Assembly: GCF_024125425.1 (NCBI RefSeq)
Contig: NZ_JAMXWN010000014.1
Location: 1-64,000 of the forward strand
Length of the DNA: 64,000 bases
Direction of reading: 5' to 3'
From: Sporolactobacillus kofuensis
GTDB lineage: Bacteria; Bacillota; Bacilli; Bacillales; Sporolactobacillaceae
The notes beneath the pieces were generated by a model. The model saw only the letters and a program-made list of their open reading frames with translations, did no database searches and had not been told where the DNA came from. The position numbers and the translations under genes are program-made. The stretch's first letter is position 1, and the number at the start of each line of letters is the position of its first letter. Positions 4,196 through 57,032 of the stretch are shown here, piece after piece.

Positions 4196-4372
4196 ATTAA
4201 TTTTCTTTAAATACTTGATCAATTGGGTGCTGTCCAATCGGTTTATTCATAGGCACGAACTAATTTTTAATTAGCGTCCAATTATTTGTGGTGTAACGAT
4301 GTTGTAATGCCCTGTTCATTAGAATAAAAGCAATTAAATTCTAGGGACATCTCATAATTAGGGAGGACAATG

Positions 4373-4801: not shown

Positions 4802-4895
4802 TCCGTTGTATTCGGCAGTTTCACTTAGGGGTATTTATCAATGATTATTAGTAGGCTACCCAAATAACCCAGAGATATAGATTGGTGGAGAAAAA

Positions 4896-5786: not shown

Positions 5787-5810
5787 TTATGATATGGAGG
5801 TTGGGCATTG

Positions 5811-6824: not shown

Positions 6825-6958
6825 ACGGAAAGGATACTGACAGTGTGATCCATGATTCTGTGAATCAAACTCATACTCATTTCTACAGCATGATCTAGCG
6901 TCTTGACAATCTTGAAAGAAGATGATTGCTTACACTCGGAAAAAGAGGAGCGTTCTCT

Positions 6959-7873: not shown

Positions 7874-7885
7874 TCTAGGAGATGT

Positions 7886-8992: not shown

Positions 8993-9134
8993 AACGAAAT
9001 GTAAAGATTCCTCAGTCATGAGTCAATTCGATTTATCGCTTATTCGATTTGTGAACTTTTTGCTGACTATGAAATTATGGATCGCAGGCTTTCAACTGCT
9101 TACTAAATTTATCATAAAGGCAGAGTGTTTAAAA

Positions 9135-10016
9135 ATGAAGATAGCCTATTTAATTATTGCCCACAATAATTTTGAACACTTAAAGAGATTGATCAGATCC
9201 ATTCAAAATGAGAATGTATTCTTTTTTATTCATATTGATCAGAAGGCTCCTCAAATCTCCTTTGATGAATTCTATCATGTTCAATTGATTCCAGAACAGT
9301 ATTCTATAAAATGGGGCGGTTTTAGCATGGTAAAAGTGACCATTGAATTATTAAAATACGCCTATCATTTTGATGATTTTAACCGTTTTGTCTTATTAAG
9401 CGGCGTTGACTATCCTATAAGAAGTAATGAATATATTGAAAATCTCTTTCAAAAGAATCCAACAATTAACTACATAGATACGCAACTGATGCCTTCTATC
9501 GATAAGCCATTTGATCGACTTTTCCGGTATTATATAGAATGTGACCGAACGGTTAATCTGCAATCTTTTCCAATTAAAGTCGTCAACAAATTGATCAAAC
9601 AATCTAGGATTTGGAGAGCTTATCCTGAACAATACCAACACTATAAGCCATTTGCCGGTAGCCAATGGTGGTCGTTTAGCGATGCATTTGTTGACTATCT
9701 ATTAAATTTTATTTCCACAAACGATGCATTCATTAGGTTCTATTTGCATACCTTCGTGCCAGATGAGATGTTTTTTCAAACAATTATTATGAACTCCCCA
9801 TTTGCACAAACCGTTAGAAACACACTCACTTTTGCTGACTGGGAACTTGGAGGACCTCCCTATCCTTCACTTATTCGAAAAATACATATGGACCTTCTAA
9901 AGAATGAATTAATTTATTCAAATCAAAAAGTAACGATTTACTGTTTTGCAAGAAAATTTACTGATGATTCATCAAAAATTGTTTCTGAACTTGATAAAAT
10001 CAGATCTAATTTTTGA
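9135..10016 (+). CDS. Core-2/I-branching family glycosyltransferase (GT14)
   Basis: 293 aa protein with the GT14 N-terminus MKIAYLIIAHNNFEHLKRLI, then FFFIHIDQKA and the conserved FVLLSGVDYPIRSNEYI stretch. Bacterial members transfer N-acetylglucosamine or xylose-like residues in surface glycans; the actual donor here is unknown. The open frame extends upstream to 8967, overlapping the aminotransferase gene, but the family homology begins at the ATG at 9135. The ribosome site before it is weak. It is the last gene of the rightward sugar operon, converging on the flippase gene. Confidence 0.82.
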   Translation: MKIAYLIIAHNNFEHLKRLIRSIQNENVFFFIHIDQKAPQISFDEFYHVQLIPEQYSIKWGGFSMVKVTIELLKYAYHFDDFNRFVLLSGVDYPIRSNEYIENLFQKNPTINYIDTQLMPSIDKPFDRLFRYYIECDRTVNLQSFPIKVVNKLIKQSRIWRAYPEQYQHYKPFAGSQWWSFSDAFVDYLLNFISTNDAFIRFYLHTFVPDEMFFQTIIMNSPFAQTVRNTLTFADWELGGPPYPSLIRKIHMDLLKNELIYSNQKVTIYCFARKFTDDSSKIVSELDKIRSNF

Positions 10017-10110
10017 GTTCACATAGGCATCTCTTGGTCGGCAAATCAATCTATGGAACTCCAAAAAAATACCCACATGTACTCAACTATGTAAAAGTGG
10101 GCATCAATGA

Positions 10111-11556
10111 TTATCTACTTTTGTATTTTTGCAAAGTCTTTCTCATTTCACGATATATCATTCCATCGCGTTTGAAATATTCTTGAACGAAGACGATTGA
10201 AAGATAAACGCCCATGCCAAGCACGATTTGGACAATCGTTGTTACTGCGGAAACCCCCATACTTCTTCCCACCAGTCGCACGAGGATCCACATCAGGAAC
10301 CCTGCAATCAAATAGTCAATTGTATTTCGTGCCATATTTTTGAACGGAACGATTTCTCTAACGAGATAAAGTTGCACAAAAGTTACAGTTAATTCCGCTG
10401 CAACAGTACCTACGCTTGCACCAATAGATCCGAACGGAGCAATGAGCATTAGGTTAACAATAAAATTGACTATTGCTCCTGCATACACAGAGATGGTATA
10501 TTCTTTCATTTTGCCCAATGGCAACATATATTGGGTACCGAATACACCACTCCAGGCCATGAGTACAATCGTTGGCGCAAGAATCACAAGGACCTGAATA
10601 CATTTTATAAAACTATTTCCCATATACCAAGGAATGAACTCTTCTGCGACTCCTGCTACACCAAACATCAGTGGTATAGCCAGAAACGTGGAAAATTCCA
10701 GTGATTTAAATAGATACTCTTTCGCTTTTTCAATCTGGCCGATAGCGAATGTATGAGCCATTCTTGGGAGCATCACTGTCCCAAGTGAAGTAACAACAGA
10801 TAATGCCATCATCCGAATCTTATCAGCATAATCAAAAATACCAACTTCACTGTTACTTGACACGATGCCAATCATCGTCTTATTCAAAACAAAGTAAATT
10901 TGAAGAGCAATTCCTGGAATAAAATAAACAATGGCTGGTTTTAAATGACTTATCATTTGTTTGAATGTAACTCTCACAATCATAATTTGACCTTTAAGAT
11001 AAAACCACATAATTAGAGAACTGACTAGAACGGATAGACACATAATATAGGTATAGATAGGTAAGTCTGATGGGTTTTTCACCAAAGTAAATACGGCTAA
11101 TAAAGAAAGGAGTTTAATCACGATATTCCGGGTGACTATTTTTTTAAACATCTCAACACCAAAGAAAAACCAGGAGCAATCGAAGACAATTCCTAATAAA
11201 CTAATCGTCTGAATCAACGCAATTGTCTTATCTTGCTGAATGAAAAAAACAGCCAAGATTAAATAGCCAATAACCGAACTAAGCGTGAGTATCAATTGAA
11301 GAAAATAGAGGCTGAAAAAGTTCTCACTCATCTTTCTTTTATTATCTCTCGTCATGGCAATGATCTTATTTCCATAGGTATCAATACCAAGCATGCCGAT
11401 AAAAGAGAAGTAGGAAATAATGGAAGCTGTATAAGCATAGGTACCGACACCATGAGGAAGCAAAACACGCGAAACATAAGGAACCGTAATCAGAGGTAAG
11501 ATCATTACCAATATTTGATAGAGAAGATTATAGAGATAATTTTTCTTAACACTCAT
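10111..11556 (-). CDS. Wzx-type polysaccharide flippase (MOP family)
   Basis: 481 aa, about 12-14 membrane helices, RfbX/Wzx type. The N-terminus NYLYNLLYQILVMILPLIT with PYVSRVLLP is characteristic of PST transporters. It should flip undecaprenyl-linked repeat units across the membrane before polymerisation. Start ATG at 11556 has AGAGGGG upstream. It is the last gene of the leftward exopolysaccharide cluster, separated from the previous gene by about 210 bases. Confidence 0.92.
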   Translation of the reverse strand: MSVKKNYLYNLLYQILVMILPLITVPYVSRVLLPHGVGTYAYTASIISYFSFIGMLGIDTYGNKIIAMTRDNKRKMSENFFSLYFLQLILTLSSVIGYLILAVFFIQQDKTIALIQTISLLGIVFDCSWFFFGVEMFKKIVTRNIVIKLLSLLAVFTLVKNPSDLPIYTYIMCLSVLVSSLIMWFYLKGQIMIVRVTFKQMISHLKPAIVYFIPGIALQIYFVLNKTMIGIVSSNSEVGIFDYADKIRMMALSVVTSLGTVMLPRMAHTFAIGQIEKAKEYLFKSLEFSTFLAIPLMFGVAGVAEEFIPWYMGNSFIKCIQVLVILAPTIVLMAWSGVFGTQYMLPLGKMKEYTISVYAGAIVNFIVNLMLIAPFGSIGASVGTVAAELTVTFVQLYLVREIVPFKNMARNTIDYLIAGFLMWILVRLVGRSMGVSAVTTIVQIVLGMGVYLSIVFVQEYFKRDGMIYREMRKTLQKYKSR

Positions 11557-11602
11557 ATTATCGTTACCCCTCTAATGATCATTTGTCAAAACAGAGTATT
11601 AA

Positions 11603-11701
11603 CTAGAGGCTTTCCGGTATTGAATTGGCGCAGAGTCTCAAACGATGCTGTTTACGTGAATAAACTGATGTGTCTAACCCATAAACCAGAACCCTTTTCA
11701 A
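11603..11701 (-). pseudogene. Possible glycosyltransferase remnant or 32-codon ORF
   Basis: Between the flippase and the preceding glycosyltransferase, the minus strand has a very strong GGAGGAGG site seven bases before a TTG start (11701). It opens a 32-codon frame beginning MKRVLVYGLDTS and ending at a TAG at 11603. The first residues resemble the start of exopolysaccharide glycosyltransferases, after which similarity is lost. This looks like the stub of a deleted gene, but a real short peptide cannot be excluded. Confidence 0.3.
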
Positions 11702-11769
11702 ATTAACACCTCCTCCGTGGTCTAATCTCTTATTCTATTTCAGGAATTAGTGCAATAGATTGTGAGGAA

Positions 11770-12756
11770 TTAGCTTACACCTCGATGCTTCCACTTGTAA
11801 AAGAGCTTGAATATTGGCGTATAAATGAGTGAAAACCATCCGACAAGCAACAATTGCAAACGACGTGCAAAGGATAACTCAATAGTTGCTATCAGCTCTG
11901 AATAATATTTACGGACAATCTTTTTCGTCTTTTGTTTGTAGGCAATCCATTTGGGATCATTTACACCGGTTCGAAGAATCAAATCGTAAATGCCCAACAA
12001 GGCGAACACATAGCCCGAAATGGCATAGATTTCGATTGACGGATATTTCTTTCTCACAAGCGCTAACATTTTTTCTGCAGATTGTATTGAGCAAAGATCA
12101 ATATCCGAACGATGCGTAATACTTCCAGAGCGCTGCCGATAATAGTATTTTGGTGTAGAGTCATAGACTATCGTGCCTGCTCGATCAAGCAAAGTATAGG
12201 TTACACTATAGTCTTCACCAGTGTGTCCTAGGGGAAATCGTACATGATCAAACAACTGTTTTGCATAAAGTTTGTCCCAAACACCAACACCGAAGTAGCC
12301 GATACTGTTTATGAATCGAAAGGCCTGCTCACTATTCATCACTAAATAGACATTTTCTTTTTTTTCAGGACGCCGAATAGATTTTCCAAAGACCTGAAAT
12401 TCACTACATATGGACATATCAGCCCTTTCTTTTCTAAGATTGGTCATAAGGAACTCATAGGTATCGTTTTGTATCCAATCATCACAATCAACAAAAGCAA
12501 TATAATCACCTGTTGCACGATCCAAAGCAACGTTCAGTGCTGAAGAAGGACCACCATTCTTTTTGTGGATCACGAGAATACGAGAATCTTTTTCTGCCCA
12601 TAAGTCACAAATTTCCGGACTGCGATCTGGAGATCCATCATCTACGAGAATAATTTCGAGATTCCGATACGTTTGATTAACAATGCTTTCGATACATTGT
12701 TCAAGATATTGTTCCGTTTGATACACAGCAACAATTACGCTAATTAGCGGATCCAC
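11770..12756 (-). CDS. Family 2 glycosyltransferase (EpsJ-like)
   Basis: 328 aa GT-A transferase for exopolysaccharide assembly. It has LISVIVAVYQTEQYLEQCI, LVDDGSPDRSPEICD, GGPSSALNVALDRATGDY and the DxD metal motif in FVDCDDW, as in Bacillus EpsJ. The C-terminus has a hydrophobic segment near LLLVGWFSLIYTPIF that may tether it to the membrane. GTG at 12756 is favoured because an AAAGGAGG site lies 10 bases upstream; a longer frame starts at 12786 without one. Donor and acceptor are unknown. Confidence 0.88.
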   Translation of the reverse strand: MDPLISVIVAVYQTEQYLEQCIESIVNQTYRNLEIILVDDGSPDRSPEICDLWAEKDSRILVIHKKNGGPSSALNVALDRATGDYIAFVDCDDWIQNDTYEFLMTNLRKERADMSICSEFQVFGKSIRRPEKKENVYLVMNSEQAFRFINSIGYFGVGVWDKLYAKQLFDHVRFPLGHTGEDYSVTYTLLDRAGTIVYDSTPKYYYRQRSGSITHRSDIDLCSIQSAEKMLALVRKKYPSIEIYAISGYVFALLGIYDLILRTGVNDPKWIAYKQKTKKIVRKYYSELIATIELSFARRLQLLLVGWFSLIYTPIFKLFYKWKHRGVS

Positions 12757-12886
12757 GGCAAGCCTGCCTCCTTTAATAACAACCATTACTTATTTCAATT
12801 ACCTATGTTTTATTATTTATCATAGAAAACGCTTCTTTTGGTTTTCAGCACAGTTTGCAAAAGGTATATTCTCGCACTAACTGAAG

Positions 12887-13993
12887 CTATGATTGGCCAA
12901 CAAAGATCTCCTCTAATTTCTTTGCTTCCGTCTCAATATCGTATCCTGATGCTTTGATCATCGTTGATGTATCTGAGCGCACGTACTCTTTATGATTCAA
13001 AATCAAGCTTGCCCAGCATGAAGCTGATTGTTTTAAAGAGTAATAGTTCATTAATTTAGTAATAGCAGCTTCTTTTGTAACCGCAGTCGATGCAATGACC
13101 TGCAATCCCGCTGCCTGTGCTTCTATGCTAACCACTGGCAATCCCTCATATCTTGAAGGGAGTAGAAACAGGTCCATTGCCTGCATCCATTCATTGACAT
13201 TATTTCTCATGCCCATAAAAATAACAGCGTCTGTTATGCCTAACAAATCTACTTTTTCCCTCATGTTAGCCTCGAGTTTGCCGCTCCCTATTAATACCAA
13301 TACTGTCTGAGGGCATCGCTTATGCATCTCATAAAAGACATCAATAATAAATTTATGGTTTTTTTGATTATGAAATCTGCCGACATGACCAATGACGAAA
13401 ATTTGATCCGTGATTCCCAGTATTTTCCTATAGTTCTTTCGTACTGGACGAGAAAAAGAGTAAAGGGTTGTTTCTATTGCATTATGAATGAGTTTATAGC
13501 GGCTTCCTGACATTATTTTTTTCGAATAGAACCATGAACCCGCAGCATTGGAACAAGCCCAATAATCTGTAGCATATCTTCGCAAAAACAGTTTATTCCA
13601 GTAATGAAAAATTTTTTTCACGAATCCATCAGTCTCTTGAGTATTATGACTATGAATGATCCTCGTTGTAACGCCGTATCTTTTAGCGAATTTTAAATAA
13701 TCGATATTTGCTAAGCTGCAACTATTCACCCATATCGACTTATAATTTTGCCCGTTTTGAGCGAAGAAGCATTTTAAGTCTTTAATATATTGAAAGAGAT
13801 GGTGCACCTTGCCGTGAATATGCCACACTCTACCTCCAAGCGTTTGAATTTCATCTTCGTAAGCGATTTTTGGAAAGATGGTCAAGAAGTCAAATTGAAC
13901 CCGCTTTTTGTTCATCTGTCGATAATAGTTCATGAGAAAGCTCTCAACGCCGCCTTTATTGGCAGTCATGCCAACGACAAGAATCCTGTTCAT
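12887..13993 (-). CDS. Family 4 glycosyltransferase (EpsF-like)
   Basis: 368 aa GT-B transferase. The N-terminus MNRILVVGMTANKGGVESFL and the C-terminal donor-site stretch LLPSRYEGLPVVSIEAQAAG match retaining GT4 enzymes of the EpsF type in Bacillus exopolysaccharide loci. The ATG at 13993 matches the family start; a TTG five codons upstream is possible. It should add a sugar to the growing lipid-linked repeat unit at the cytoplasmic face. Confidence 0.88.
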   Translation of the reverse strand: MNRILVVGMTANKGGVESFLMNYYRQMNKKRVQFDFLTIFPKIAYEDEIQTLGGRVWHIHGKVHHLFQYIKDLKCFFAQNGQNYKSIWVNSCSLANIDYLKFAKRYGVTTRIIHSHNTQETDGFVKKIFHYWNKLFLRRYATDYWACSNAAGSWFYSKKIMSGSRYKLIHNAIETTLYSFSRPVRKNYRKILGITDQIFVIGHVGRFHNQKNHKFIIDVFYEMHKRCPQTVLVLIGSGKLEANMREKVDLLGITDAVIFMGMRNNVNEWMQAMDLFLLPSRYEGLPVVSIEAQAAGLQVIASTAVTKEAAITKLMNYYSLKQSASCWASLILNHKEYVRSDTSTMIKASGYDIETEAKKLEEIFVGQS

Positions 13994-14049
13994 TTTTTTC
14001 ACCCACAAATTCTTTAATGAATTTAATTGCTGAACGCTAGGAATAATCT

Positions 14050-15267
14050 TTAATTTAAAAGTTCATGAGCAAATGTGTGGTAATAATGATCAAGATTCAA
14101 CCCTTCTGCATTTTTACGACTTGCCTCAGCCATACGTTCACGTAATGCTTTTTTCGAAAGTAAGGTATTCATTGACTCTGCCAAATGGGTTACGAGTTCT
14201 TTATCTCTAGCCAATAAAACAGCACAATCCTTATTCACGTACTCTGGGATACCACCTGATACGGTTGTGATCAGCGGCAATCCGGATGCCATGGATTCGA
14301 TAACGGTTAATGGAGCCGGATCATCCCACATCGATGGCACAACAGCCAAGTCTGCCATTGCATAAATCGAAGGCATCTGTTGGTAAGCAACAAAACCTGT
14401 AAATATGATCTTGTCGTTCATCGATTCTGCAAGCTTTTTCAATCCAGTTTCATAGTCGCTCTCCATCTTACTGCCATAGAAATAACCACCGACGATAACT
14501 AGCTTTGCATCCGGAATATTCGCCTGCCTGAATGCGAGCAGCAATTCCTTAATCCCTTTTTCCTTAGAGAGCCGCCCCGAAAATAAGATAATCTTTTCAT
14601 TCTCTGCAATTCCATATTTTCTGCGAACATTCATTGCTTCTTTTCTGCTTTTAATACTTCCAAACAGAGCTGTATCTACACAATTCTTAAGCACAATCAA
14701 ATGTTTTGGTGGGGATCCTTCAAAGAAAATTTCTAGTGTATTATTGATGTAGCGGCTCACACCGAGCACTTTCTTACAGTTGCGAATAAGTTCCCGACAA
14801 TTGTAGTCCTTGGTGACCTCATTATGAAGATGATAATAATATCTACCAAGGTACTTGCGAGAATTCCCATATTTTTTCAATGCCATAAATAGTGTTGCAT
14901 GATTTTCAAGCACAACTTTATCGTAATTGTTCTTTTTTAAATACTTTCCGACTTTATAAATGTAATGAAGTCTCTGAACGATATATCGATAGGACATATG
15001 CTTCTCTATTTTTATTTTTTTTGCGATGAAATAAATAATCCGATCACAAATTCGAAGTAGATAAGGAGGTTTTATGAACACATACGCCGAGTTTCTCTTG
15101 CTGGCAGCAATTCTAACCGCTTTTTCATGATAGGTACTAAAAATGATTAGTTTAAACAGTTGATAGCGCTCATTCTCATTCACAAGATTATCCACTAACG
15201 CTTCTACTGCTCCTCCCATCGCAGCTGGAACAGGTAAATATCCAGATGTAACGATCGCAATATTCAT
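14050..15267 (-). CDS. Family 4 glycosyltransferase
   Basis: 405 aa GT-B transferase. The acceptor half starts MNIAIVTSGYLPVPAAMGGAVE. The donor half has LFSGRLSKEKGIKELL, then VPSMWDDPAPLTVIESMASG with the typical E-x7-E region. ATG at 15267 is chosen because GGGAGG lies 7 bases upstream; the open frame extends 14 codons further. It starts 13 bases after the polymerase gene, so the two are probably cotranscribed. Confidence 0.88.
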   Translation of the reverse strand: MNIAIVTSGYLPVPAAMGGAVEALVDNLVNENERYQLFKLIIFSTYHEKAVRIAASKRNSAYVFIKPPYLLRICDRIIYFIAKKIKIEKHMSYRYIVQRLHYIYKVGKYLKKNNYDKVVLENHATLFMALKKYGNSRKYLGRYYYHLHNEVTKDYNCRELIRNCKKVLGVSRYINNTLEIFFEGSPPKHLIVLKNCVDTALFGSIKSRKEAMNVRRKYGIAENEKIILFSGRLSKEKGIKELLLAFRQANIPDAKLVIVGGYFYGSKMESDYETGLKKLAESMNDKIIFTGFVAYQQMPSIYAMADLAVVPSMWDDPAPLTVIESMASGLPLITTVSGGIPEYVNKDCAVLLARDKELVTHLAESMNTLLSKKALRERMAEASRKNAEGLNLDHYYHTFAHELLN

Positions 15268-15280
15268 TGACGATCCTCCC

Positions 15281-16504
15281 TTAAAAGCGGATGATAAAAT
15301 TTTTTGCATGCTTCTTGCGCACAGGAACTTTCGGAGCTAAAGCCAAACCGACTAAGAAAAAATAGTTCATAACAGCGGGGGGATACAAAAATGATCCGTC
15401 AATCATAAATGCAATTAGTACACAAATCATCCCAATGGCTGCAAGGTCATTCTGTTTATAAACGCTGATGATCGCTGAAATAAAGATGCCAAGAAATCCA
15501 ATAAATCCGAAAATACCGTACATTTGAAATGAGTAAAACAGTCCCTCAACATAATTGATTTCATCCCAGGGCAAACCAACGATCAGAAATCTGAGAAACT
15601 CAGCTTCAGTTAAATGATTAATTTGTGAAAACGCACTTGCATATTGCAAGGTACGCCCGGCACCGGTCGGATCTGATATCGTTTGCTGCATATAACGTGC
15701 ATAGGCTTGTTGAAGAAATGAACTATCCGCATGAATGAGGTATAAAATTCCAAAACCGGAAATGAACAAAACCGCCGCCAGGAACAGGAGCTGATGATGA
15801 TCATTTAATTTGTTTTTCACAAGCATCAGAATAAATATAAGAAAGATAACAAAGGGAATCATGATCGATCGCGAGCCACTCAGAAATAAACCGACAAGCC
15901 CGAAAACAATGGCTGCGTATTTAAGCACTTTTTGTTTCATCGTTAATGGAAACCATGAGAGCAGGAACGGAATGCCCATCGCATAAAATAAACCGACTCC
16001 GTTTCCATTTTGATAAGTTGATGGCATTTTCTGTGCTTCTCCAGAGATCGCCATACCGAAGCCAATCGGTTTGTCTGCTAAATCCTGACCAAATGTATAC
16101 GTGAGTCCTGGAATTGCCGTCGCGACAATACCGGCAATCCTTTGTATCAGTGCATAACTTCCCACAATAATAAGAGAAAACGCCAGAATTTTTATTGCCT
16201 TTTGAGCATCCATTGACCTTCCAATGCCGATTGCCAGCGGTGAAGCAAAAACAACCATAGCCGCTGTGATTTGAAATGACGAAAGACTGCCCAAATTAAT
16301 GACAAAGGCTAGCAACACAGAACATGCAAAAAGAACATAAGATACGGACAAACCTTTTATTTGGTTAATTGCTGAAATCACATGTAACTGGCATTTTATT
16401 AGCGCAAACAAAAATAAGAACATAGCAATCGTTATTGGAACACCAATCTGCACTCCTGCCTTTGGAAAAGTAAATGTTATGAATTCAAAAAAATAATTCA
16501 GCAT
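15281..16504 (-). CDS. Wzy-type polysaccharide polymerase (O-antigen ligase-like membrane protein)
   Basis: 407 aa, about 11-12 hydrophobic segments with one large extracytoplasmic loop around residues 250-310. This is the layout of Wzy/EpsG/RfaL-type proteins. Primary sequence is weakly conserved, as usual for polymerases, so the call rests on topology and on its place between glycosyltransferases in a locus with Wzx and Wzz. The start at 16504 has AAGGGG nine bases upstream. It should polymerise flipped repeat units outside the membrane. Confidence 0.75.
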   Translation of the reverse strand: MLNYFFEFITFTFPKAGVQIGVPITIAMFLFLFALIKCQLHVISAINQIKGLSVSYVLFACSVLLAFVINLGSLSSFQITAAMVVFASPLAIGIGRSMDAQKAIKILAFSLIIVGSYALIQRIAGIVATAIPGLTYTFGQDLADKPIGFGMAISGEAQKMPSTYQNGNGVGLFYAMGIPFLLSWFPLTMKQKVLKYAAIVFGLVGLFLSGSRSIMIPFVIFLIFILMLVKNKLNDHHQLLFLAAVLFISGFGILYLIHADSSFLQQAYARYMQQTISDPTGAGRTLQYASAFSQINHLTEAEFLRFLIVGLPWDEINYVEGLFYSFQMYGIFGFIGFLGIFISAIISVYKQNDLAAIGMICVLIAFMIDGSFLYPPAVMNYFFLVGLALAPKVPVRKKHAKNFIIRF

Positions 16505-16598
16505 TAACCTAATCCCCTTACTATCGATCTGTCCCAATTAAATGATGCATATTCTCATTTTTTCTTTTCATGACTGCTATTTTTTCAAAACATCGAGC

Positions 16599-17717
16599 TT
16601 ACTGATCGGTTGCCGAATGCGAACGGTTAGTTTGATCATTCCTATTAATCAGTTGCTCATAAACCTCTACTATTCTGCGATTTAGTTTGTCGCTTGTATA
16701 TTTTTCTTTATAGATTGCATAGCCTTGTTCCCCCAAGGTTTCTAGATCACGTTTACTGACCGTTGTTAGAATCTTCGTTAATTGTTCTAAATGGTTTAGG
16801 TCAAATAAATAACCGTTCACTCCATCCGTCACTAATTCAGGAAGATCTCCTCGATTACTGGCAATGATCGGTTTTTTGTTCTTCATCGCTTCTATTGCGA
16901 CCAATCCAAAACCCTCCCATCTGGATGGAATGATGATCGCATCAAATTTTTCATAATAACTGTCAATGATTTGATGATCAACCCAACCTAGTGTCGTGAC
17001 ATTATTTGGAATTTCCATAAGCGCCGGATCCAGAACATTCTGCCCTATTGCATATAAATTGACATTTTCCAGAGGGGAATTCTTAAAGTAATCAAATAAA
17101 AGATCAATGCCCTTTTGCCTATCAAACCGTCCAACAAAAAGTAGATTAATTTTCGTTTGATCAAGATTTAGCGAGAGATCCTCACCTTTAAATAGTCGGT
17201 CTTCAATCCCATTTGGAATCACTATTGATTTCTGCTTGGGTATCTTATAGAGTTGTGAACCAATAAACTCTTTATTCGATATATTGACAATAATGTCTGT
17301 TTTTCTCGCGAGCAAGCGCTCTAACCATCCGTAAATATATTTTTTTATCTGAGAGATCTCCATCATGAATGACCATCCATGGGCACAATACACAATTTTG
17401 GGGCGTTTCATTTTGAAAAAAAACCACACGCGAACAAATAAACCAGCAAAGGAACTATGAATGTGAACAATATCAGGTTTTAACTTAGTTATCGCTTGAT
17501 GAACTTCGATGATCGCAGGAAGTACTTTGGATAATTTCCTTTTATAGTGGTAATAGTGAAAATGGACGCCATCGATCGGTAGATTGTCAGAATTATAGTC
17601 ACTCATTAACACATGAACACTACTTACCTGATCTGCGGACACTTGAAATTTTAAAACCTCGTTTATATAAGTTGATATCCCGCCTCGAACATACTCACAA
17701 ACATGTAAAATTCTCAT
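16599..17717 (-). CDS. Family 4 glycosyltransferase
   Basis: 372 aa GT-B transferase with MRILHVCEYVRGGISTYIN at the N-terminus and IPSRWEGFGLVAIEAMKNK in the donor site. The N-terminus resembles EpsD/CapM-like enzymes. GAGGGCGG lies six bases before the ATG. It is the third gene of the leftward operon, so it may act early, after the priming sugar transferase. Confidence 0.88.
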   Translation of the reverse strand: MRILHVCEYVRGGISTYINEVLKFQVSADQVSSVHVLMSDYNSDNLPIDGVHFHYYHYKRKLSKVLPAIIEVHQAITKLKPDIVHIHSSFAGLFVRVWFFFKMKRPKIVYCAHGWSFMMEISQIKKYIYGWLERLLARKTDIIVNISNKEFIGSQLYKIPKQKSIVIPNGIEDRLFKGEDLSLNLDQTKINLLFVGRFDRQKGIDLLFDYFKNSPLENVNLYAIGQNVLDPALMEIPNNVTTLGWVDHQIIDSYYEKFDAIIIPSRWEGFGLVAIEAMKNKKPIIASNRGDLPELVTDGVNGYLFDLNHLEQLTKILTTVSKRDLETLGEQGYAIYKEKYTSDKLNRRIVEVYEQLINRNDQTNRSHSATDQ

Positions 17718-17820
17718 TGCTATCCGCCCTCACCCTCTAAGAAGCTTCTATAAATTTTTTTTACCAGCCGGGCTTCATAAGATTGGTGCAGCGATATCTG
17801 GTTCAATAAATGGTGATTAT

Positions 17821-18522
17821 CTAATAGGAATTTTTAGAATGAAAAATAATGAAAAGTGTTTTAATCATAATTTTGATATCGAATAGAGTGCTTCTCTTCT
17901 TAATGTACTCAATATCTAATTCAACCATCGTTTCAAATCCTACACTGCTTCTCGCCTCAACTTGCCAGAGACCCGTACAACCTGGCTTAACGAGTAACCG
18001 TTGCTTATCATATTGGGAATATTGTTGTACTTCCCGGAGCAGCGGTGGGCGGGGCCCGACTAAACTCATTTCTCCTTTTAATACATTTAATAATTGAGGA
18101 AACTCATCTAAGCTTGTTTTCCGCAAAAATCGGCCAACCTGAGTAACTCTTGGGTCATTTTTTATTTTGAACATAGCTCCTGACGATTCATTTTTATCAA
18201 GCAGATCATCCAACAGGTCTTCAGCGTGATGCACCATTGATCGGAATTTATAGATGCGAAATTGTTCACCGTTCTTTCCAACTCGATTTTGCTTGAAAAA
18301 TATTGGGCCCTCAGGATCATTTAGTTTAATAATGATCGAGATCAATAGGAACAGTGGTGACAAAAAGATTAGCCCTACTAAAGCACCACATAGATCCATT
18401 ACTCTTTTTATGAATAAATAGCCGGGTGTCTCCCTTAAATGTAGTTGAAGATTTTGCATGTTTTCTCTAATGTTCATTGTCGTATCGTAAGTTTTCTCAG
18501 CCGGCGGCTTTGAGAAAGCCAT
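17821..18522 (-). CDS. Undecaprenyl-phosphate priming sugar transferase
   Basis: 233 aa bacterial sugar transferase that links a sugar-1-phosphate to undecaprenyl phosphate and so starts the repeat unit. There is one N-terminal membrane segment (about residues 40-65). The family motifs follow in order: YKFRSMV, a SLDEFPQLLNVLKGEMSLVG block followed by PRPP, and KPGCTGLWQV. This is the short PssY/EpsL-size form without the extra membrane domain of WbaP. ATG at 18522 follows AGGAGG by 8 bases. It directly follows the tyrosine-kinase gene, which often controls such enzymes. Confidence 0.92.
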   Translation of the reverse strand: MAFSKPPAEKTYDTTMNIRENMQNLQLHLRETPGYLFIKRVMDLCGALVGLIFLSPLFLLISIIIKLNDPEGPIFFKQNRVGKNGEQFRIYKFRSMVHHAEDLLDDLLDKNESSGAMFKIKNDPRVTQVGRFLRKTSLDEFPQLLNVLKGEMSLVGPRPPLLREVQQYSQYDKQRLLVKPGCTGLWQVEARSSVGFETMVELDIEYIKKRSTLFDIKIMIKTLFIIFHSKNSY

Positions 18523-18608
18523 AATGTCTGCCTCCTGTAGACAATAGATAGTAGTCATCTTGAATGAAGAGGAATGCAGATCGACGAGAAAAGAAGCTTA
18601 TTATTCTA

Positions 18609-20060
18609 TCAATGTTCGCTATAGTTGTAGTGATACCGGTCTTTTCTACGTACTTTCTTATCATTCAACACCATACCAAGAAGTTTGCCATTAACTTCTG
18701 AAAACACATGAGCTGCTTTCCGAACGTTCTCGAATTCTGAGGTTCCGCTTTTTACCACCATTAAGATTCCGTCACATAGGTTTGCCAGTAGCCGAGCATC
18801 TGTAACAGCCAAGATCGGTGGAGAATCAATAATCACTTGATCAAAATGTTCCTCTGCCTGCCTGATCACGTCTTCCATTTCCGCAGAACTCAGTAAATCA
18901 GCGGGATTAGGTGGGACAGGTCCACTAGTCATGAGATAGAGCTGATCCAAAATAGTCGATCGAAGTACACTTGAGGCCTTCGCTTGCCCTGTTAGCACAT
19001 TCGTCAGCCCTTTTCGGTTATTCCGATCAAAAAATCGATGCTGTGTCGGCTTTCGAGTGTCCGCATCGATCAGTAGCACTTGTTTCCCCTGTTGCGCCAT
19101 GACGACGGCCAAATTCGCAGCTGTTGTTGATTTTCCCTCACCAGATTCAGCCGAAGTCACGACCAATGATTTTAAACCTCCTCCTGCTTTAGCAAAGGAA
19201 ATATTTGTTCGTAATGTGCGATATTGTTCAGAAATCGAAGAGTTTTCCTGAAAAAAGGTGACAAGAGCATACGGTTCCCCTTTCTCTTTCATCACACGTC
19301 TAAAAAGGCGTCTTCTCTTTCTAAACATTTCTAACCTTGTTGTGTTAGGTACCTTTTTATCAACTATTTTTCTGTGCCTGTCTTGATTACCAAAATGCTC
19401 AATAACGCCAACCACGGGGAAACCTAATTTCTGTTCAATGTCTTCTTCTGTCTTAATCGTGTTATCCAGATATTCAATCAGAAAAACAAGACCAGTCGAG
19501 AACAATAAACCAAGGATTACTGCGACAGTGAGATTTTTGGTGAGATTTGGCGAAACCTGTCCACTACTCGCAGACACAGTTGCTGGTGAAATCAAACTGA
19601 CGTTATCCACTTTCAAAAACTCTTGCACTTGCGCTTTGAACTCCCTAGCAACACTGTTCACGATGCGTACGGAAAGTTCCGCACGATTCGTCTCTGCTGT
19701 TATCGAAAAGATCTGGGATTGTTCACTCGTTTCGACAGTTAAGGTGCCTTGTAATTCTTCTGTCGTCCAGTTCAGATTTAAATCTCGAATGACCTTTTTT
19801 AATACTGACGGATCATCGATCAATTCACTGTACGTGTTTACAAGCTGGACATTTGTTTGAACGGCATTCGAATTATAGAGCATTTTTCCATTGCCTAAAT
19901 TTACAAGAATTCGAGTCGTCGCATCGTACTTTGGTGTCATGAAAAAGTTGGTGGCAATCGCTCCGATTAGGACGGCGACAAAAGTTATGGAAGCGATCAA
20001 CCATATCCGCTTCCTAACAATCAGATAGATTTCCTTTAATCCCACTGTCTTTTTCATCAA
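18609..20060 (-). CDS. Fused chain-length determinant and bacterial tyrosine kinase (Wzz-BY kinase)
   Basis: 483 aa. An N-terminal Wzz domain has two membrane helices (about residues 18-40 and 175-197) around an external domain. It is followed by a linker rich in Arg/Lys (about 228-262) and a BY-kinase domain. Walker A is SAESGEGKST (303-312), A-prime LLIDADTRKP, and Walker B VIIDSPP. The C-terminus DRYHYNYSEH has tyrosines 476, 478 and 480, the usual autophosphorylation cluster. It sets polysaccharide length and phosphorylates partners. In most Bacillales these are two proteins; here they are one chain, as in proteobacterial Wzc. No cognate phosphatase gene is in the window. ATG at 20060 has GGAGG seven bases upstream. 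Confidence 0.93.
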   Translation of the reverse strand: MMKKTVGLKEIYLIVRKRIWLIASITFVAVLIGAIATNFFMTPKYDATTRILVNLGNGKMLYNSNAVQTNVQLVNTYSELIDDPSVLKKVIRDLNLNWTTEELQGTLTVETSEQSQIFSITAETNRAELSVRIVNSVAREFKAQVQEFLKVDNVSLISPATVSASSGQVSPNLTKNLTVAVILGLLFSTGLVFLIEYLDNTIKTEEDIEQKLGFPVVGVIEHFGNQDRHRKIVDKKVPNTTRLEMFRKRRRLFRRVMKEKGEPYALVTFFQENSSISEQYRTLRTNISFAKAGGGLKSLVVTSAESGEGKSTTAANLAVVMAQQGKQVLLIDADTRKPTQHRFFDRNNRKGLTNVLTGQAKASSVLRSTILDQLYLMTSGPVPPNPADLLSSAEMEDVIRQAEEHFDQVIIDSPPILAVTDARLLANLCDGILMVVKSGTSEFENVRKAAHVFSEVNGKLLGMVLNDKKVRRKDRYHYNYSEH

Positions 20061-20431
20061 AGTTCCTCCAAATGTCGTTCAAGTTCACCCAATCTGACTA
20101 TCAGGTAGGGAACAAATAGTTCTTCATTTTTATTACACGTATCATACAGAACAGGACGTAACACAATCATTACACGGACATGCCACATCTGAGTGAAGTG
20201 AAGCATCAGATTATTGGAATACAAACTTTTTCTTTGCCACCATCTCATGTTGAGTTCTCAATAATGTATGTACTTGAACTGTTTTAGAGATTGTAAGATA
20301 CAGGATTATCCATAAGCCCATCCATTTTTATAAAAAATAATGAATACTCTTCTCGAAAAGAGCATTCATTTTATACATAGGGATCTGATTTTTTGGATTT
20401 AATCAGTTTGTATCGTGTGGGGGAACAACCA
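20061..20431. other. Divergent control region between the exopolysaccharide operon and the orphan regulator-like genes
   Basis: About 370 bases with no supported gene. On the minus strand a 63-codon frame (20248-20057) overlaps the kinase start but has no ribosome site. A 12-base perfect palindrome (TTGAGTTCTCAA, 20250-20261) and the hairpin at 20339-20370 are the notable elements. A TATGAT hexamer exists on the minus strand around 20141-20146 but lacks a -35 at good spacing. The promoter of the operon is therefore not assigned. Confidence 0.45.
20339..20370 (-). terminator. Hairpin in the exopolysaccharide control region (terminator or attenuator)
   Basis: AATGAATACTCTT (20339-20351) and AAGAGCATTCATT (20358-20370) pair over 13 positions with one mismatch. 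On the minus strand the stem is followed by a T-rich run, as in an intrinsic terminator; on the plus strand the T run is short. It lies about 280 bases upstream of the kinase start. It could attenuate a promoter located further right, or insulate the divergent units. Confidence 0.55.
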
Positions 20432-21169
20432 ATGCAAAAAATACACACTGAAATTGGAGACTGTCTTTTCGAGGTTCAAGCAGATTCGGCGACTCTAATG
20501 ACTATGTTTACAAGAAATTTTATTTGTGTAAGTAATGTTCAAGATCAATCAGCAAACATGATCATATATATCCATGGTGGCTATGATACGCCTATCGTAA
20601 AAAAAGGCTCCAAACACACGCATGAACAGTGTTCATTGATGATCCAACAGAATGACTATGTCATTATCGTTGAAAAGCACTTCAGCTCCGCTCATCTCTA
20701 TGTTTATCATCTTCAAGCGCTAATTACAGCTTTTTACAACTTATACAGTCTGCTCATTGTTCATAACGAATGGGGTATCATGGTGAACTGCAGATACATG
20801 ATCAAACAGGGTGAAGCGCACCTCGAGTTAACTAGGTTAGCGAACAACGCACATGAAATAAGCACTTGTGCAGAAGACAAGGTGGGAACGGTCCTGATCA
20901 AAATTTCTCCAAATGGTGCGACCCTATTCGAATGTACAGCTCAGAATATTGAATCAGCTGAATTCTATCCAATAGGCAGCATTAGGTTTTCTAATCAATT
21001 TTCCCCCAAAAAAATAAGAAAAACGCAAGTAATGTTACAGCTTCTCGACTCTGTACCCTATTTGCCAAATGAAAACGAGTCGATGCTGCACATGATTTCA
21101 ATGCTCAAGCAATTCGTTGCTGTCACTCCGATTCTGGGATGTTCTACTGATCGAAAATTCATCTCGTGA
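20432..21169 (+). CDS. Orphan protein, possibly degraded HPr-kinase-like fold
   Basis: 245 aa cytosolic protein without signal peptide or membrane segment. I do not recognise it with confidence. An N-terminal beta-rich part and a stretch LQALITAFYNLYSLLIVHNE sit where HprK-like proteins have the helix and strand before their P-loop. The C-terminal SMLHMISMLKQFVAVTPIL resembles the end of that family. No GxxGxGKS/T is present, so it would not bind ATP in the usual way. ATG at 20432 follows GGGGGA by 7 bases. It lies divergent from the exopolysaccharide operon and in the same direction as the two hydrolase-SARP genes. Function unknown. Confidence 0.6.
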   Translation: MQKIHTEIGDCLFEVQADSATLMTMFTRNFICVSNVQDQSANMIIYIHGGYDTPIVKKGSKHTHEQCSLMIQQNDYVIIVEKHFSSAHLYVYHLQALITAFYNLYSLLIVHNEWGIMVNCRYMIKQGEAHLELTRLANNAHEISTCAEDKVGTVLIKISPNGATLFECTAQNIESAEFYPIGSIRFSNQFSPKKIRKTQVMLQLLDSVPYLPNENESMLHMISMLKQFVAVTPILGCSTDRKFIS

Positions 21170-21388
21170 CTTGACTTGATCAAATGAAACTCTATTTATT
21201 GAGGAACACTCAAGCAACATTGGGTTCGAGGAATGCTATTCTTCCAAACATGGTTTGGCTTATGATGATGCTTAATATGGTTTATCGAGTGAACCTTTTT
21301 TCAAAACTTAGCCTATCAATTCATCCATTACACAATCATTTCAGTACAAATTTTAATTAATTAATGTGTACTAAAGAGGTTAAACCTT

Positions 21389-22915
21389 ATGGATACACTT
21401 GCCATGACTCATTATTCTTTGCATTATTCAGCTAATTTTCCAACCCCAAATGCCCCGACAGTACTCTTTATTCATGACATGATGGTCAATGCAGCTGAGT
21501 GGATACCGATGACGGGATATCTTGGAAACCAATTGAATTTTGTAGTCTATGATTTATATGACCATGAAAGAACAGGTGGTAATCATCGGCCGAGCTTCAA
21601 AAAATTTATCTCAGACATTTGTTTATTAATCAATCACCTTAAACTCAATAACATTCATATCGTTGGGGATGGTTTGGGTGGAAATATCGGTTTTGAGTTC
21701 GCGAGAAGGTACCCTCAACGAGTTGCTTCACTCACTATGATGGCTACTAATTTTTTCTTTAAAAACGATGTAGTGAGTAGAGAACTCACATTACTCGCTC
21801 AACTGATTGACTGCGATCGATCGTTGTTCTTTCAAAAATTACTTGAGGTCAATTTTCAAACACTTACCGAGGATAAAATTTTGCTCTTTGAAAATTCTTC
21901 CGCGCATGTTTCATCTCGTTTCATCAAAGAGTGTTTGAGCATGCTCCTTAACTTTTATGATCCTGAACGATTTTGCTTTGAAATAGAGCTTAGCAAGTTG
22001 AACGTTCCAACACTTGTCCTACATGGCACCAATGATCTGTTTTTCCCAGGGTATCTATCCGCCATATTTTCAGCATGCCTTCCAAACAGTCATTTTCTTA
22101 CCGTGCCTGGAGCGGCGCATAACCTGCCACTCGATCAGCCGGAAATCACCGCTACCTTTGTAAGTCACTTTATTTTAACAAATAGGAAGTCACCATTTGT
22201 TTCTTCACTTCACAACAAACTGGTGAATGAATTTCGAGAGGTATTGAGAAAAAGCCTTGATTTGTCAAAAAATGATCGACATATTCTCAGGATAACAATG
22301 ATGGGTGAAATCCAAATTCTGTGGAATGATGAATTGATTGAAGGTAAGTGGAATCAGCGTCGTGCGAAAGAGCTGCTCTTGTTTATAATCCTTAAAGGTG
22401 GAATGACCACTCGGGATGAGCTGATTCAAACCTTTCTTCCAAGTCTTACGCACGAATCTTCAAGGAATCATTTGCGCGTGCAAATCAATCATTTAAATCA
22501 ACTTTTTCATGATTCTCCTAATCCTGATGTTCATAACCTTTTGTTGATAAATGAGCAAATGATTGCGTTAAATGCGCAATGTGAAAGCGACATTGGAGAT
22601 TATCAAAAGTCGTTAGATCAACTTGCTCAGGACACACGCCCCATAAACGATCAATTGTTGACGTTGATTTTATTATTGAAACAGTATGATCCTGACTCCT
22701 TCACTTCATTCCACGGGGAATGGATCAATACATTAACTAATCAAATTGAATCTAAATTATCAGACGTTATGGTACATCTGCTCTCAAAATTGAATGTAGA
22801 AAAAATGTATTCAGAGATGCGCGGGCTACTCCACTATGGAAAATCTGTTGAGCCTTATGATGGATACTGCGAGGAGCAACTGATGAAAATACAACATCAT
22901 CTACGGCTTGAATGA
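21389..22915 (+). CDS. Pseudo-alpha/beta-hydrolase fused to SARP-type transcription activator (copy 1)
   Basis: 508 aa. Residues 1-260 are an alpha/beta-hydrolase fold: LFIHDMM oxyanion loop, nucleophile elbow HIVGDGLGG at 90-98, Asp216 in LHGTNDLFFP and His244 in PGAAHNLPLDQPE. The nucleophile Ser is Gly95, so esterase activity is not expected. Residues about 299-373 form an OmpR/SARP winged helix (LRITMMGEIQILWNDELI, then WNQRRAKELLLFIILKGG). The remaining 130 residues resemble the helical BTAD activator domain. ATG at 21389 has AGAGG upstream. It is closely followed by a paralogue with the same architecture. The likely role is a ligand-sensing transcription factor; the ligand and targets are unknown, with the divergent exopolysaccharide operon an obvious candidate. 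Confidence 0.8.
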   Translation: MDTLAMTHYSLHYSANFPTPNAPTVLFIHDMMVNAAEWIPMTGYLGNQLNFVVYDLYDHERTGGNHRPSFKKFISDICLLINHLKLNNIHIVGDGLGGNIGFEFARRYPQRVASLTMMATNFFFKNDVVSRELTLLAQLIDCDRSLFFQKLLEVNFQTLTEDKILLFENSSAHVSSRFIKECLSMLLNFYDPERFCFEIELSKLNVPTLVLHGTNDLFFPGYLSAIFSACLPNSHFLTVPGAAHNLPLDQPEITATFVSHFILTNRKSPFVSSLHNKLVNEFREVLRKSLDLSKNDRHILRITMMGEIQILWNDELIEGKWNQRRAKELLLFIILKGGMTTRDELIQTFLPSLTHESSRNHLRVQINHLNQLFHDSPNPDVHNLLLINEQMIALNAQCESDIGDYQKSLDQLAQDTRPINDQLLTLILLLKQYDPDSFTSFHGEWINTLTNQIESKLSDVMVHLLSKLNVEKMYSEMRGLLHYGKSVEPYDGYCEEQLMKIQHHLRLE

Positions 22916-22952
22916 ATCAATGATAAGTACTGGGAAAGGGGAGCGTTCTAGG

Positions 22953-24515
22953 TTGTCAACCGTAACTATTGAAAATCATACGCTGAACTATCATTACCAT
23001 CTATCCGATAAAAATAGTCCAACTCTGCTCTTCATCCACGATCTGTGTATGGATTCGGAAATGTGGAAGTACACGCTGCCACACATGGGACAGCACTTCA
23101 ATTTACTCACTTATGACTTTTATGGCCATGGCAAAACAACAGACACTCTTGAGCCAAGTTCACTGCATCTCCTCACTCATGAGCTACTCGCACTTTTACA
23201 CTACTTAGAACTTGATTGTGTTCACATAGTAGGTTGTAAATATGGTGCATTCCTTGCTCTTGAACTGGCTATTAACTACCCAAACCTTGTAAGTTCGCTC
23301 GCACTAATCTCATTGCCATTCTATATACAGAAAGACATTTATGATCGTGACGGTTCCATAAACTTACAACTGATCCAGCTCGATCAAGCATTGTTTGTGA
23401 AAAAGTATATCATAGAAAACACTTGTCCCGTTGCCTTGTCAAAAGCTCGATTAATCACACGTGCCCTTCATCGAATACCTAACCGTCACCTCTATTCATC
23501 ATTCAAGGACCTGATCATAAGAAGTGGTCTACCAAATGGCAATACCATGAGTAAACTCAAACAACTTCAGAAACCGATCTTATTCATGCATGGCGAAAAT
23601 GATCCAATATTTCCCCCAACTCTAGCAATGATCTACAGTCAATTTGCAGCAAACAGCCGGTTCATGGTGATTCAAGCATCTTCTTCCCTCATCCCTCTCG
23701 ACCAGCCTGAATATGCGGCAGATACACTCTGCCAATTCTTGAACAAATATGATTCAATGTCATCTGTTCATTTGAGAAAAGATGGATTTATTCGTTCATT
23801 GCATCAAGTTCTTGAACAAACATATCAATCTCGGTTCGATCACCCATGTGAACTGAGACTGTCCATCATGAGCGGGGTTACGCATGTCTTCTGGAATAAC
23901 GAGGAACTCAATGCGACATGGACAAGGCGAAATGCTCGGGAACTCCTTCTCTTCATCATTCTGAAAAAAGGTGTTGTTCATCGAGACACAATCATCAATG
24001 CCTTCTTAACCGACATGGCTATCGATCACGCCCGTAACCATCTGCGCGTTCAACTAAATTATCTAAACACGCTGTTTCGCAATCAGGCAGATCCGGCTCT
24101 TCGACATGTCCTCATCGTCACCCGAGAATCAGTAGCCTTAAATGCTGATGTAAAAAGTGATCTAGGTGAATTTATGGAATCCATTGAAGACATGATCTGG
24201 TCTAATGCACCTATTGAAGAACGCGTTCGTAATTTTTTGATCCTTATTGAAGATTTTAAGCCGACTATTTTTCATACATGGAAAGGTGGGTGGATCAAAA
24301 AAATAGAACAGCAAATAACAAATCAACTGATACAAATCCTCGAACAGATTCTATTCGTGCTTACTAAAGAAGGAAACGATGCTGAAATTCAGCGAATCCT
24401 TAGCAAATGCATGAGTAATGAACTCTATAAAGACCGCTGTGAACACTACACGAACCTTCTGGATCAAAGAAACGGAACTTCTCGTAAAGGGACTCCCCCA
24501 ATCCCTTCTCAATAA
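22953..24515 (+). CDS. Pseudo-alpha/beta-hydrolase fused to SARP-type transcription activator (copy 2)
   Basis: 520 aa from TTG 22953, chosen because GGGGAG lies nine bases upstream and the N-terminus then aligns with copy 1 (FIHD at 27-30 in both). The open frame begins at TTG 22908, overlapping the end of copy 1. In the hydrolase part the elbow reads HIVGCKYG, so the nucleophile is Lys96. Asp217 is kept in MHGENDPIF, but the His position is lost (QASSSLIPLDQPE). The winged helix runs from LRLSIMSGVTHVFWNNEEL through RRNARELLLFIILKKG, followed by a BTAD-like helical region. It has lost two of three catalytic residues, so binding rather than catalysis is expected. Probably cotranscribed with copy 1. 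Confidence 0.8.
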   Translation: MSTVTIENHTLNYHYHLSDKNSPTLLFIHDLCMDSEMWKYTLPHMGQHFNLLTYDFYGHGKTTDTLEPSSLHLLTHELLALLHYLELDCVHIVGCKYGAFLALELAINYPNLVSSLALISLPFYIQKDIYDRDGSINLQLIQLDQALFVKKYIIENTCPVALSKARLITRALHRIPNRHLYSSFKDLIIRSGLPNGNTMSKLKQLQKPILFMHGENDPIFPPTLAMIYSQFAANSRFMVIQASSSLIPLDQPEYAADTLCQFLNKYDSMSSVHLRKDGFIRSLHQVLEQTYQSRFDHPCELRLSIMSGVTHVFWNNEELNATWTRRNARELLLFIILKKGVVHRDTIINAFLTDMAIDHARNHLRVQLNYLNTLFRNQADPALRHVLIVTRESVALNADVKSDLGEFMESIEDMIWSNAPIEERVRNFLILIEDFKPTIFHTWKGGWIKKIEQQITNQLIQILEQILFVLTKEGNDAEIQRILSKCMSNELYKDRCEHYTNLLDQRNGTSRKGTPPIPSQ

Positions 24516-47846: not shown

Positions 47847-48115
47847 AAAGCTACCTTCCTTATTCCATAGATATTCATGCATCTTAGCGCTAATAAAAAC
47901 AGATGATACGGAGATCTTTTGTGGATAAAAGATTCAGAACCCCCAGTACAAGAAAAACAGTTAATCGTCACATTAGTGGAAGGACACCTAAATCAGCACA
48001 ACCAGTTATAAAGGTATCATTACACAAAAGAAAGCGATAAAGGTGAGCGGCTATGAATCAATCATTGACGAAAATAAATAGTTTTATAAGTACTGCCATG
48101 GGCTACTAATCGATT

Positions 48116-52189: not shown

Positions 52190-52227
52190 CTCTCTCTCTC
52201 CTTTTTCACTAAGCCTACGGTAACCGA

Positions 52228-56948: not shown

Positions 56949-56958
56949 TTGATCATTT

Positions 56959-57003: not shown

Positions 57004-57032
57004 AGCATGATGCCCAAACTATTCCATTTTAA

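Follow-up and report, generated by a model that had tools for sequence, protein, structure and literature searches.

The window analysed here is a stretch of 64,000 nucleotides from Sporolactobacillus kofuensis (contig NZ_JAMXWN010000014.1, positions 1 to 64,000, forward strand). It contains two adjacent genes whose products, proteins 1 and 2, combine an N-terminal α/β-hydrolase fold that has lost its catalytic residues with a C-terminal module resembling the Streptomyces antibiotic regulatory proteins (SARPs). The two genes and the domains of protein 1 are arranged as follows.

21389 to 22915, plus strand: protein 1 (P0001, 508 residues), consisting of a pseudo-α/β-hydrolase (residues ~1-265), a linker (residues 266-295) and a SARP module (residues 296-508)
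21389 to 22183, plus strand: pseudo-α/β-hydrolase domain of protein 1, residues 1-265 (Abhydrolase_1; Foldseek match to esterase 4uhe)
22274 to 22912, plus strand: SARP module of protein 1, residues 296-508, an OmpR-type winged helix followed by BTAD-like helices (AlphaFold2, Foldseek)
22953 to 24515, plus strand: protein 2 (P0002), a paralogue of protein 1, with a start read from the sequence; the open reading frame (ORF) is listed from TTG 22908

The ORF of protein 2 (22908-24515, plus strand) encodes 535 residues when counted from TTG 22908. Its start is probably TTG 22953, which lies behind GGGAAAGGGGAG and is aligned with the start positions of relatives. A sequence-only reading of this DNA had described two adjacent hydrolase–SARP ORFs as tandem paralogues. 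Both ORFs are present at the proposed positions, and their paralogy is evident from 30% identity over 505 columns (E 2e-81). The pair therefore stands as described, but the description understates the case, since the family spans the order and has its own operator and predicted targets. The same reading knew of no characterised Firmicutes example with a hydrolase-like sensory part, and our search of the open-access literature likewise found no description of any α/β-hydrolase–SARP fusion. A tblastn search against plasmids gave no match.

The N-terminal domain adopts an α/β-hydrolase fold, as had been proposed from the sequence, and profile and structure searches agree on it. Pfam Abhydrolase_1 was matched in the N-terminal halves of proteins 1 and 2 (E 1.4e-12 and 9.7e-16, respectively) and in all 40 aligned members of the family (E up to 1). 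The best Foldseek match of full-length protein 1 is the esterase 4uhe (E 6.8e-17), and hydrolase-fold entries are found among the best 50 matches listed. The best NCBIfam profile for the domain is TIGR02427 (PcaD; E 1.5e-18 for protein 1 and 3.9e-24 for protein 2), with scores of 67 and 85 bits that lie far under the equivalog cut-off of 256 bits.

The catalytic triad is lost in both proteins. The nucleophile position is occupied by Gly95 in protein 1 and by Lys111 in protein 2 (numbered from TTG 22908). Protein 1 retains Asp216 and His244, and protein 2 also lacks the catalytic His, with Ser in its place. Among 50 full-length members including proteins 1 and 2 (8 of 39 new matches, shorter than 440 residues, were excluded), 30 have Gly at the nucleophile position, 7 have Arg and 4 have Ser, and eight other residues are spread over the remaining 9. 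Gly stands at this position in 7/7 rows of the protein-1 clade of the tree, and Arg or Lys in 8/8 rows of the protein-2 clade. It is highly improbable that the domain is still catalytic by a non-canonical route and that the protein is a moonlighting enzyme. The acid Asp is retained in 44 of the 50 members, the catalytic His in 6 and the nucleophilic Ser in 4, which speaks for such an enzyme, but Ser and His occur together in none of them, so that the Ser-Asp-His triad of an active Abhydrolase_1 enzyme is absent throughout, and ten different residues replace Ser. The earlier view of the hydrolase as dead is thus upheld. The dead domain is under purifying selection in three of four close pairs, in which the ratio of nonsynonymous to synonymous substitution rates (dN/dS) of the hydrolase half is 0.006/0.05=0.12, 0.021/0.15=0.14 and 0.065/0.21=0.31. 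Of nine pairs in total, the other five had a dS that was saturated or could not be computed.

The C-terminal half was assigned by fold. The AlphaFold model of residues 296-508, built from 40 sequences, has a predicted local distance difference test (pLDDT) score of 96.9 and a predicted template modelling (pTM) score of 0.89. When this model was searched against the PDB with Foldseek, the top six rows were AfsR (three) and EmbR (three), at E-values from 2.8e-5 (AfsR, 8k60) to 3.1e-3, with EmbR 2ff4 at 2.1e-3; after a gap, unrelated helical proteins came next at E 0.18. The structural alignments extend over 199 (AfsR) and 207 (EmbR) of the 213 residues and include the helical part. At the sequence level, Pfam assigned no family at E up to 1 to the C-terminal halves of proteins 1 and 2, and Trans_reg_C was matched in 9 of the 40 aligned members (E up to 1; best 8.3e-5). 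A profile of the C-terminal half searched against PDB sequences (E up to 1) listed neither AfsR nor EmbR, and the match is therefore by fold only. The winged helix that had been predicted past residue 295 is accordingly borne out by the model, the AfsR and EmbR matches and Trans_reg_C, and the predicted BTAD-like helical C-terminus is confirmed by the fold alignment, not by Pfam.

Five residues are invariant in the 40 members (W321, R324, R342, V364 and D401), and all of them are located in the DNA-binding half. In the available text of PMC10936776, the AfsR recognition helix contacts DNA through R87, T88, R92, R94 and K95; counted from AfsR W74, these contacts would correspond to R363, V364, H368, N370 and Q371 of protein 1. 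The DNA-binding domain of SARPs is placed at the N-terminus, and here the module is C-terminal (residues 296-508). The proteins are therefore a SARP-like variant and not standard small, medium or large SARPs.

Full-length family members were found in 8 of 15 Sporolactobacillus genomes, mostly as tandem pairs or triples, and two further genomes of the genus contain remnants only (a larger one in G014 and a tiny one in G002). In G009, the first ~100 residues of the family gene at L039:7487-9103 are unrelated to the family; this gene, in a genome without the operator described below, is probably a broken or chimeric copy. Across the order, the family is present in at least 31 of 397 sampled genomes (E 1e-35) and 23 of 136 genera; the genome searches scored only three candidates per genome, and 31 may therefore be a lower bound. 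Among the listed genomes from other taxonomic families than the window's, most have a single full-length match. A phylum-wide sample gave 2 of 398 genomes at the same threshold, the window's own included. A search of named genomes for close relatives of protein 1 found none, and an alignment-based search there returned five Sporolactobacillus records.

A candidate operator for the family was found in the sequences upstream of wzz genes, which share a direct repeat of 11 bp, TGTAAYG-N4-TGTWACG, whose second heptamer is followed ten bases later by TATGAT. The full operator pattern, TGTAAYG-N4-TGTWAYG-N10-TANNNT, consists of two 11-bp direct repeats and a −10 box at a fixed distance. Three sites were found in the window genome, all of them inside the window.

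20141 to 20174, minus strand: operator 1, TGTAATGATTGTGTTACG-N10-TATGAT, facing wzz/BY-kinase and the exopolysaccharide (EPS) genes on the minus strand
4292 to 4325, plus strand: operator 2, TGTAACGATGTTGTAATG-N10-TAGAAT, facing the FdtA-like gene 4370-4801 and the EPS genes on the plus strand
21310 to 21343, minus strand: operator 3 (one mismatch), TGAAATGATTGTGTAATG-N10-TAGGCT, 46 bp upstream of protein 1 and directed away from it

In the 2.96-Mb genome of the window, the DGTAAYGNNNNTGTWACR repeat occurs once, at 20157-20174 on the minus strand, and the reversed pattern does not occur. The region 20061-20431, which the sequence-only reading had put forward for a DNA-binding assay, contains operator 1, a predicted site with SARP geometry. 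The spacing of the operator is specific: in 45 loci searched at up to one mismatch, 51 matches were obtained at a repeat gap of 4 and a −10 gap of 10, and other repeat gaps gave 0-3 matches per cell. At the same repeat gap of 4, the other columns gave 0-11 matches, which may come from the same repeats counted again. The free columns of the pattern display an extended −10 element (T26 in 25/35, G27 in 20/35 and A33 in 26/35). The AfsR-dependent afsS promoter likewise has two 11-bp repeats with six bases to the −10 element, according to the text available from PMC10936776. The 11-bp direct-repeat operator at a fixed −10 distance that characterizes SARPs is thus found to co-occur with this family.

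The operator tracks the family. Of 43 loci, which derive from 37 genomes and in some cases share one, 30 have a site within 1.5 kb of a family gene when up to one mismatch is allowed and 35 when up to two are. In 20 dinucleotide-shuffled sets, the corresponding numbers were 0 loci in every set with one mismatch and 0 or 1 with two. Across the order, the exact operator is present in 18 of 31 family-bearing genomes vs 1 of 366 others (Fisher 6e-22), and a site at up to one mismatch in 29 of 31 vs 69 of 366; at one mismatch, many genomes also contain reversed-pattern matches. As a marker, the repeat is weaker when the −10 box is left out (16/31 vs 44/366). The cleanest tests are the free columns and the 22 genomes that carry the family in other taxonomic families than the window's: 10 of these genomes have exact sites, and in 17 a site with no more than one mismatch lies within 223 bp of the match to the family. 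The site of G172 is 1951 bp away, and no site is near the match in G188, G231, G240 or G307 at this tolerance. Within the genus, sites occur in all seven genomes with ordinary family genes (G000, G005, G006, G007, G008, G010 and G012) and in none of the six family-less genomes, among which G002 with its tiny remnant is counted. The larger remnant of G014 is accompanied by one site with an imperfect −10 element, and G009, with one aberrant copy, has none. The genus total is 30 sites vs one reversed-pattern match.

The core of the operator overlaps the WalR (YycF) consensus TGTWAH-N5-TGTWAH, as given in the consulted part of PMC4168254, and the repeats could in principle be WalR sites, with the family merely a neighbour or target of WalR. 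Their distribution differs from that of WalR, which scores over its cut-off in 15/15 genus genomes, yet sites are found in only 8/15, and six family-less genomes have no site. At base 7, left free in a recount, as an earlier count of G in 34/35 had included G in the pattern, G is present in 21 of 23 WalR-consensus repeats with the −10 element in place near family genes, and the second half-site also has G in 21/23; the S. mutans VicR consensus in the same source has A. Among exact repeat matches in the loci examined, the −10 element is in place in 0/23 in family-less genomes vs 10/11 within 1.5 kb of the family. WalR was rejected as the repeat binder on distribution, base 7 and −10 distance, and we regard this alternative as very unlikely. 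Other SARP-type proteins were also rejected as binders, as SARP-like C-terminal matches in ORFs of 369-396 residues occur in G002, G003 and G013, genomes without a site. G072, the sole family-less genome with an exact operator (C2:107475-107508), has a SARP-like stretch at C11:70759-71436 within an ORF of 1087 residues.

Operators 1 and 2 stand at the two heads of an EPS gene cluster, and operator sites in general are mostly directed away from the family gene, to neighbouring or remote genes. The features beside the family genes in the window are listed below.

4370 to 20060, both strands: EPS cluster, in which plus-strand genes (4370-10016) and minus-strand genes (10111-20060) converge, each headed by an operator
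18609 to 20060, minus strand: Wzz/BY-kinase (Wzz E 2.3e-19, AAA_31 E 3.1e-15), the first minus-strand EPS gene and predicted target of operator 1
20432 to 21169, plus strand: P0003, a conserved neighbour with no Pfam match
20339 to 20370, minus strand: terminator-like hairpin between P0003 and operator 1, a consensus match only (one found vs a mean of 2.6 in shuffles)

Three genes of the cluster were annotated by Pfam (FdtA, Wzz/AAA_31 and Bac_transf) and the rest by reading the sequence. The FdtA-like gene 4370-4801 (plus strand; PF05523, E 5.1e-45) is the predicted target of operator 2. A wzz/BY-kinase EPS operon stands beside the family gene in 11 of 43 loci (the window, L031, L034, L035, L113, L114, L115, L117, L118, L120 and L104), the last of which belongs to another taxonomic family. 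The first substantial ORF past the operator is wzz in the window, L031, L034, L117, L195, L198 and L118 (at 490 bp). Pfam identified the corresponding ORF as FdtA (window, 4370), a polysaccharide pyruvyl transferase (L199), a glycosyltransferase (L203) or PqqD (L194, L197 and L202). Further predicted targets include an ABC exporter (L036 and L032), small genes of ~82-103 residues and others without a clear link.

A second type of neighbourhood, an ABC exporter with a PF14907-kind nucleotidyltransferase, is found in 4 of 43 loci (L032, L036, L037 and L098; L036 and L037 were assigned by Pfam/NCBIfam and the others by BLAST clustering). L036 and L098 also contain a lasso-cyclase-type gene and an HprK-like kinase, and both kinase and nucleotidyltransferase genes have been described in lasso peptide clusters (PMC9266682, in its available part). 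These lasso-peptide-type clusters, L036:262-10721 (G010) and L098:3343-12737 (G096), come from two taxonomic families. The L036 cyclase matches NF033535 at E 1e-106, below the cut-off. The operator precedes the exporter in L036 and adjoins the family gene in L098.

We consider it reasonably likely that the best explanation is that the family members are SARP-kind one-component activators with a pseudo-hydrolase sensory domain, which control EPS genes and, in relatives, lasso-type or other genes for ribosomally synthesized and post-translationally modified peptides (RiPPs). The C-terminal winged helix and BTAD-like module would bind the two 11-bp direct repeats, probably as a side-by-side dimer. 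The repeats would stand in for a −35 element, six bases ahead of the extended −10 element, and the DNA-bound module would recruit RNA polymerase. In the window strain, the predicted sites are both heads of the EPS cluster and the intergenic region before protein 1. The family very probably binds the operator, and there is good reason to expect that it activates transcription. The direction of the effect is not readable from the sequence, and OmpR-type regulators both activate and repress. Repression of the EPS genes, or both effects according to the ligand, is nevertheless unlikely, as no promoter of the sigma-70 type was scored at operator 1 or operator 3 in a simple scan, and the repeats occupy the place of the afs box in the AfsR-activated promoter, so far as the available text of PMC10936776 describes it.

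The N-terminal hydrolase fold, with its catalysis lost, likely acts as the sensory domain of this activator. A small molecule, most likely bound in the old substrate pocket, is on balance a plausible signal; the sequence-only reading had conjectured a lactone, ester or lipid. As a possible but less probable alternative, the domain would serve for protein docking or dimerization and take its signal from another protein. RsbQ, a hydrolase, contacts the PAS domain of RsbP (PMC3183031, available part), the Arg or Lys at the nucleophile position in the protein-2 clade (8/8) may fill the pocket, and the small genes adjacent to the family, which are predicted targets, could encode partners. The retention of the acid Asp in 44/50 members and the small Gly in the protein-1 clade (7/7), which leaves space for a ligand, argue for the small-molecule receptor. 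Conserved small proteins of ~80-95 residues occur near the family gene (L031:10447-10728, L032:12356-12619, L035:10488-10751, L114:8136-8423 and L114:8853-9098); they have no Pfam match over the cut-off, several lie behind an operator, and a role as feedback partner is possible. We propose, tentatively and as a doubtful extension of the sensory activator, a new class of one-component receptor in which a dead lactonase-like domain binds a self-made or environmental lactone- or ester-type signal and, acting directly on DNA, switches on EPS and lasso/RiPP genes. The Sporolactobacillus paralogues, with Gly-type and Arg/Lys-type pockets, would heterodimerize on unequal half-sites and integrate two signals per promoter.

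Several observations weigh against the explanation as a SARP-kind activator. The 25 families, out of 63, that Pfam listed for the 40 members do not include BTAD, and the VIA-align Z-scores of 12.4 (AfsR) and 11.3 (EmbR) fall below ~13, where a match can mean merely an arrangement common in helical folds. In the fourth close pair (L035/L039), the dN/dS of the hydrolase half is 0.159/0.24=0.66, and the L039 copy has an unrelated N-terminal stretch. Eight of the 43 loci have no site within 1.5 kb, the family is present without a site at up to one mismatch in G009 and G188, and the 69 family-less genomes counted above have a site at that tolerance. The operator tests are only partly independent, because the pattern was first read from four wzz-side sites in the window's own taxonomic family and then loosened after others had been seen. 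The sites point away from the family genes, and autoregulation is therefore not evident. P0003 has no plus-strand operator of its own at up to four mismatches.

Several relatives of P0003 do have an upstream operator, and they are the first substantial ORF past it in L031, L032, L034, L037, L038, L119 and L196. P0003 may be a decayed HprK-like kinase. An HprK origin was rejected as a candidate: hhalign against two lasso-cluster kinases gave 0.4/100, and its sole support is a P-loop in one relative and a weak AAA_29 match. The P-loop, GTSGAGKST, is present in L032:16390-17169 and absent from the other aligned rows. At the place of operator 3, relatives have a small divergent gene, of which tblastn found no homologue in the window. 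In one genus, the first substantial gene past the operator encodes a SinR-like regulator (L111:11598-11942 and L124:10797-11141), which in L111 has HTH_3 and SinI domains; SinR controls the biofilm matrix in B. subtilis. Elsewhere in the window, a PreQ1 riboswitch (56958-57006, minus strand) precedes the gene 56463-56948, which reads like a membrane protein, and a Bacillaceae-1 RNA lies at 24-91. The region 45435-54177 reads as a glycogen-type cluster with a phosphorylase, a synthase, two ADP-glucose pyrophosphorylase-like genes and a branching enzyme.

With this family, Firmicutes gain a SARP branch, represented in 23 of the 136 genera sampled across the order, with a sensory domain, an operator and predicted targets of its own. 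The specificity of the operator, with three sites in a 3-Mb genome, suffices for predicting regulons from sequence, and the operator connects both EPS production and clusters of the lasso/RiPP type to a putative receptor with a ligand that can now be sought.

Compared with known systems, the family resembles SARPs (AfsR and EmbR, and small SARPs such as ActII-ORF4) in sharing the AfsR/EmbR fold over the whole C-terminal module, and its operator resembles that of AfsR at afsS in having two 11-bp direct repeats at the same −10 distance. It differs from SARPs in the C-terminal position of the module, the short BTAD-like part, the Firmicutes host and predicted targets that include EPS genes. Its sensory part is a pseudo-hydrolase, in contrast to the NB-ARC, TPR and LAL-type additions covered by the available text of PMC10972967. 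RsbQ, which works with the PAS domain of RsbP in the energy stress response of B. subtilis, is likewise a Firmicute α/β hydrolase that serves signalling. In the consulted text of PMC3183031, however, RsbQ is a separate protein that needs its triad and works through PAS domains with phosphatase, kinase or diguanylate cyclase outputs, whereas here the hydrolase is fused to the SARP module and the triad is lost. The operator shares an 11-bp-period direct repeat and a TGTAAY core with that of WalR/VicR (PMC4168254, in part), but has G at the seventh place, a fixed −10 distance and a presence that tracks the family and not WalR. The N-terminal domain is most similar by NCBIfam profile to the 3-oxoadipate enol-lactonase PcaD and related esterases, from which it differs in its low score and lost catalytic residues. 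Finally, the sequence-only reading had compared the proteins to the plant hormone receptors GID1, D14 and KAI2, in which a hydrolase fold was taken up as a receptor, as is predicted for this family. The likeness is one of fold, and sequence matches of protein 2 include chains of KAI2, but D14 and KAI2 retain the triad, which none of the 50 members has. D14 and KAI2 act through F-box partners and not through a fused DNA-binding domain; if the proposed mechanism is true, a pseudo-hydrolase acting directly on DNA would be the bacterial counterpart of these receptors of the same fold.

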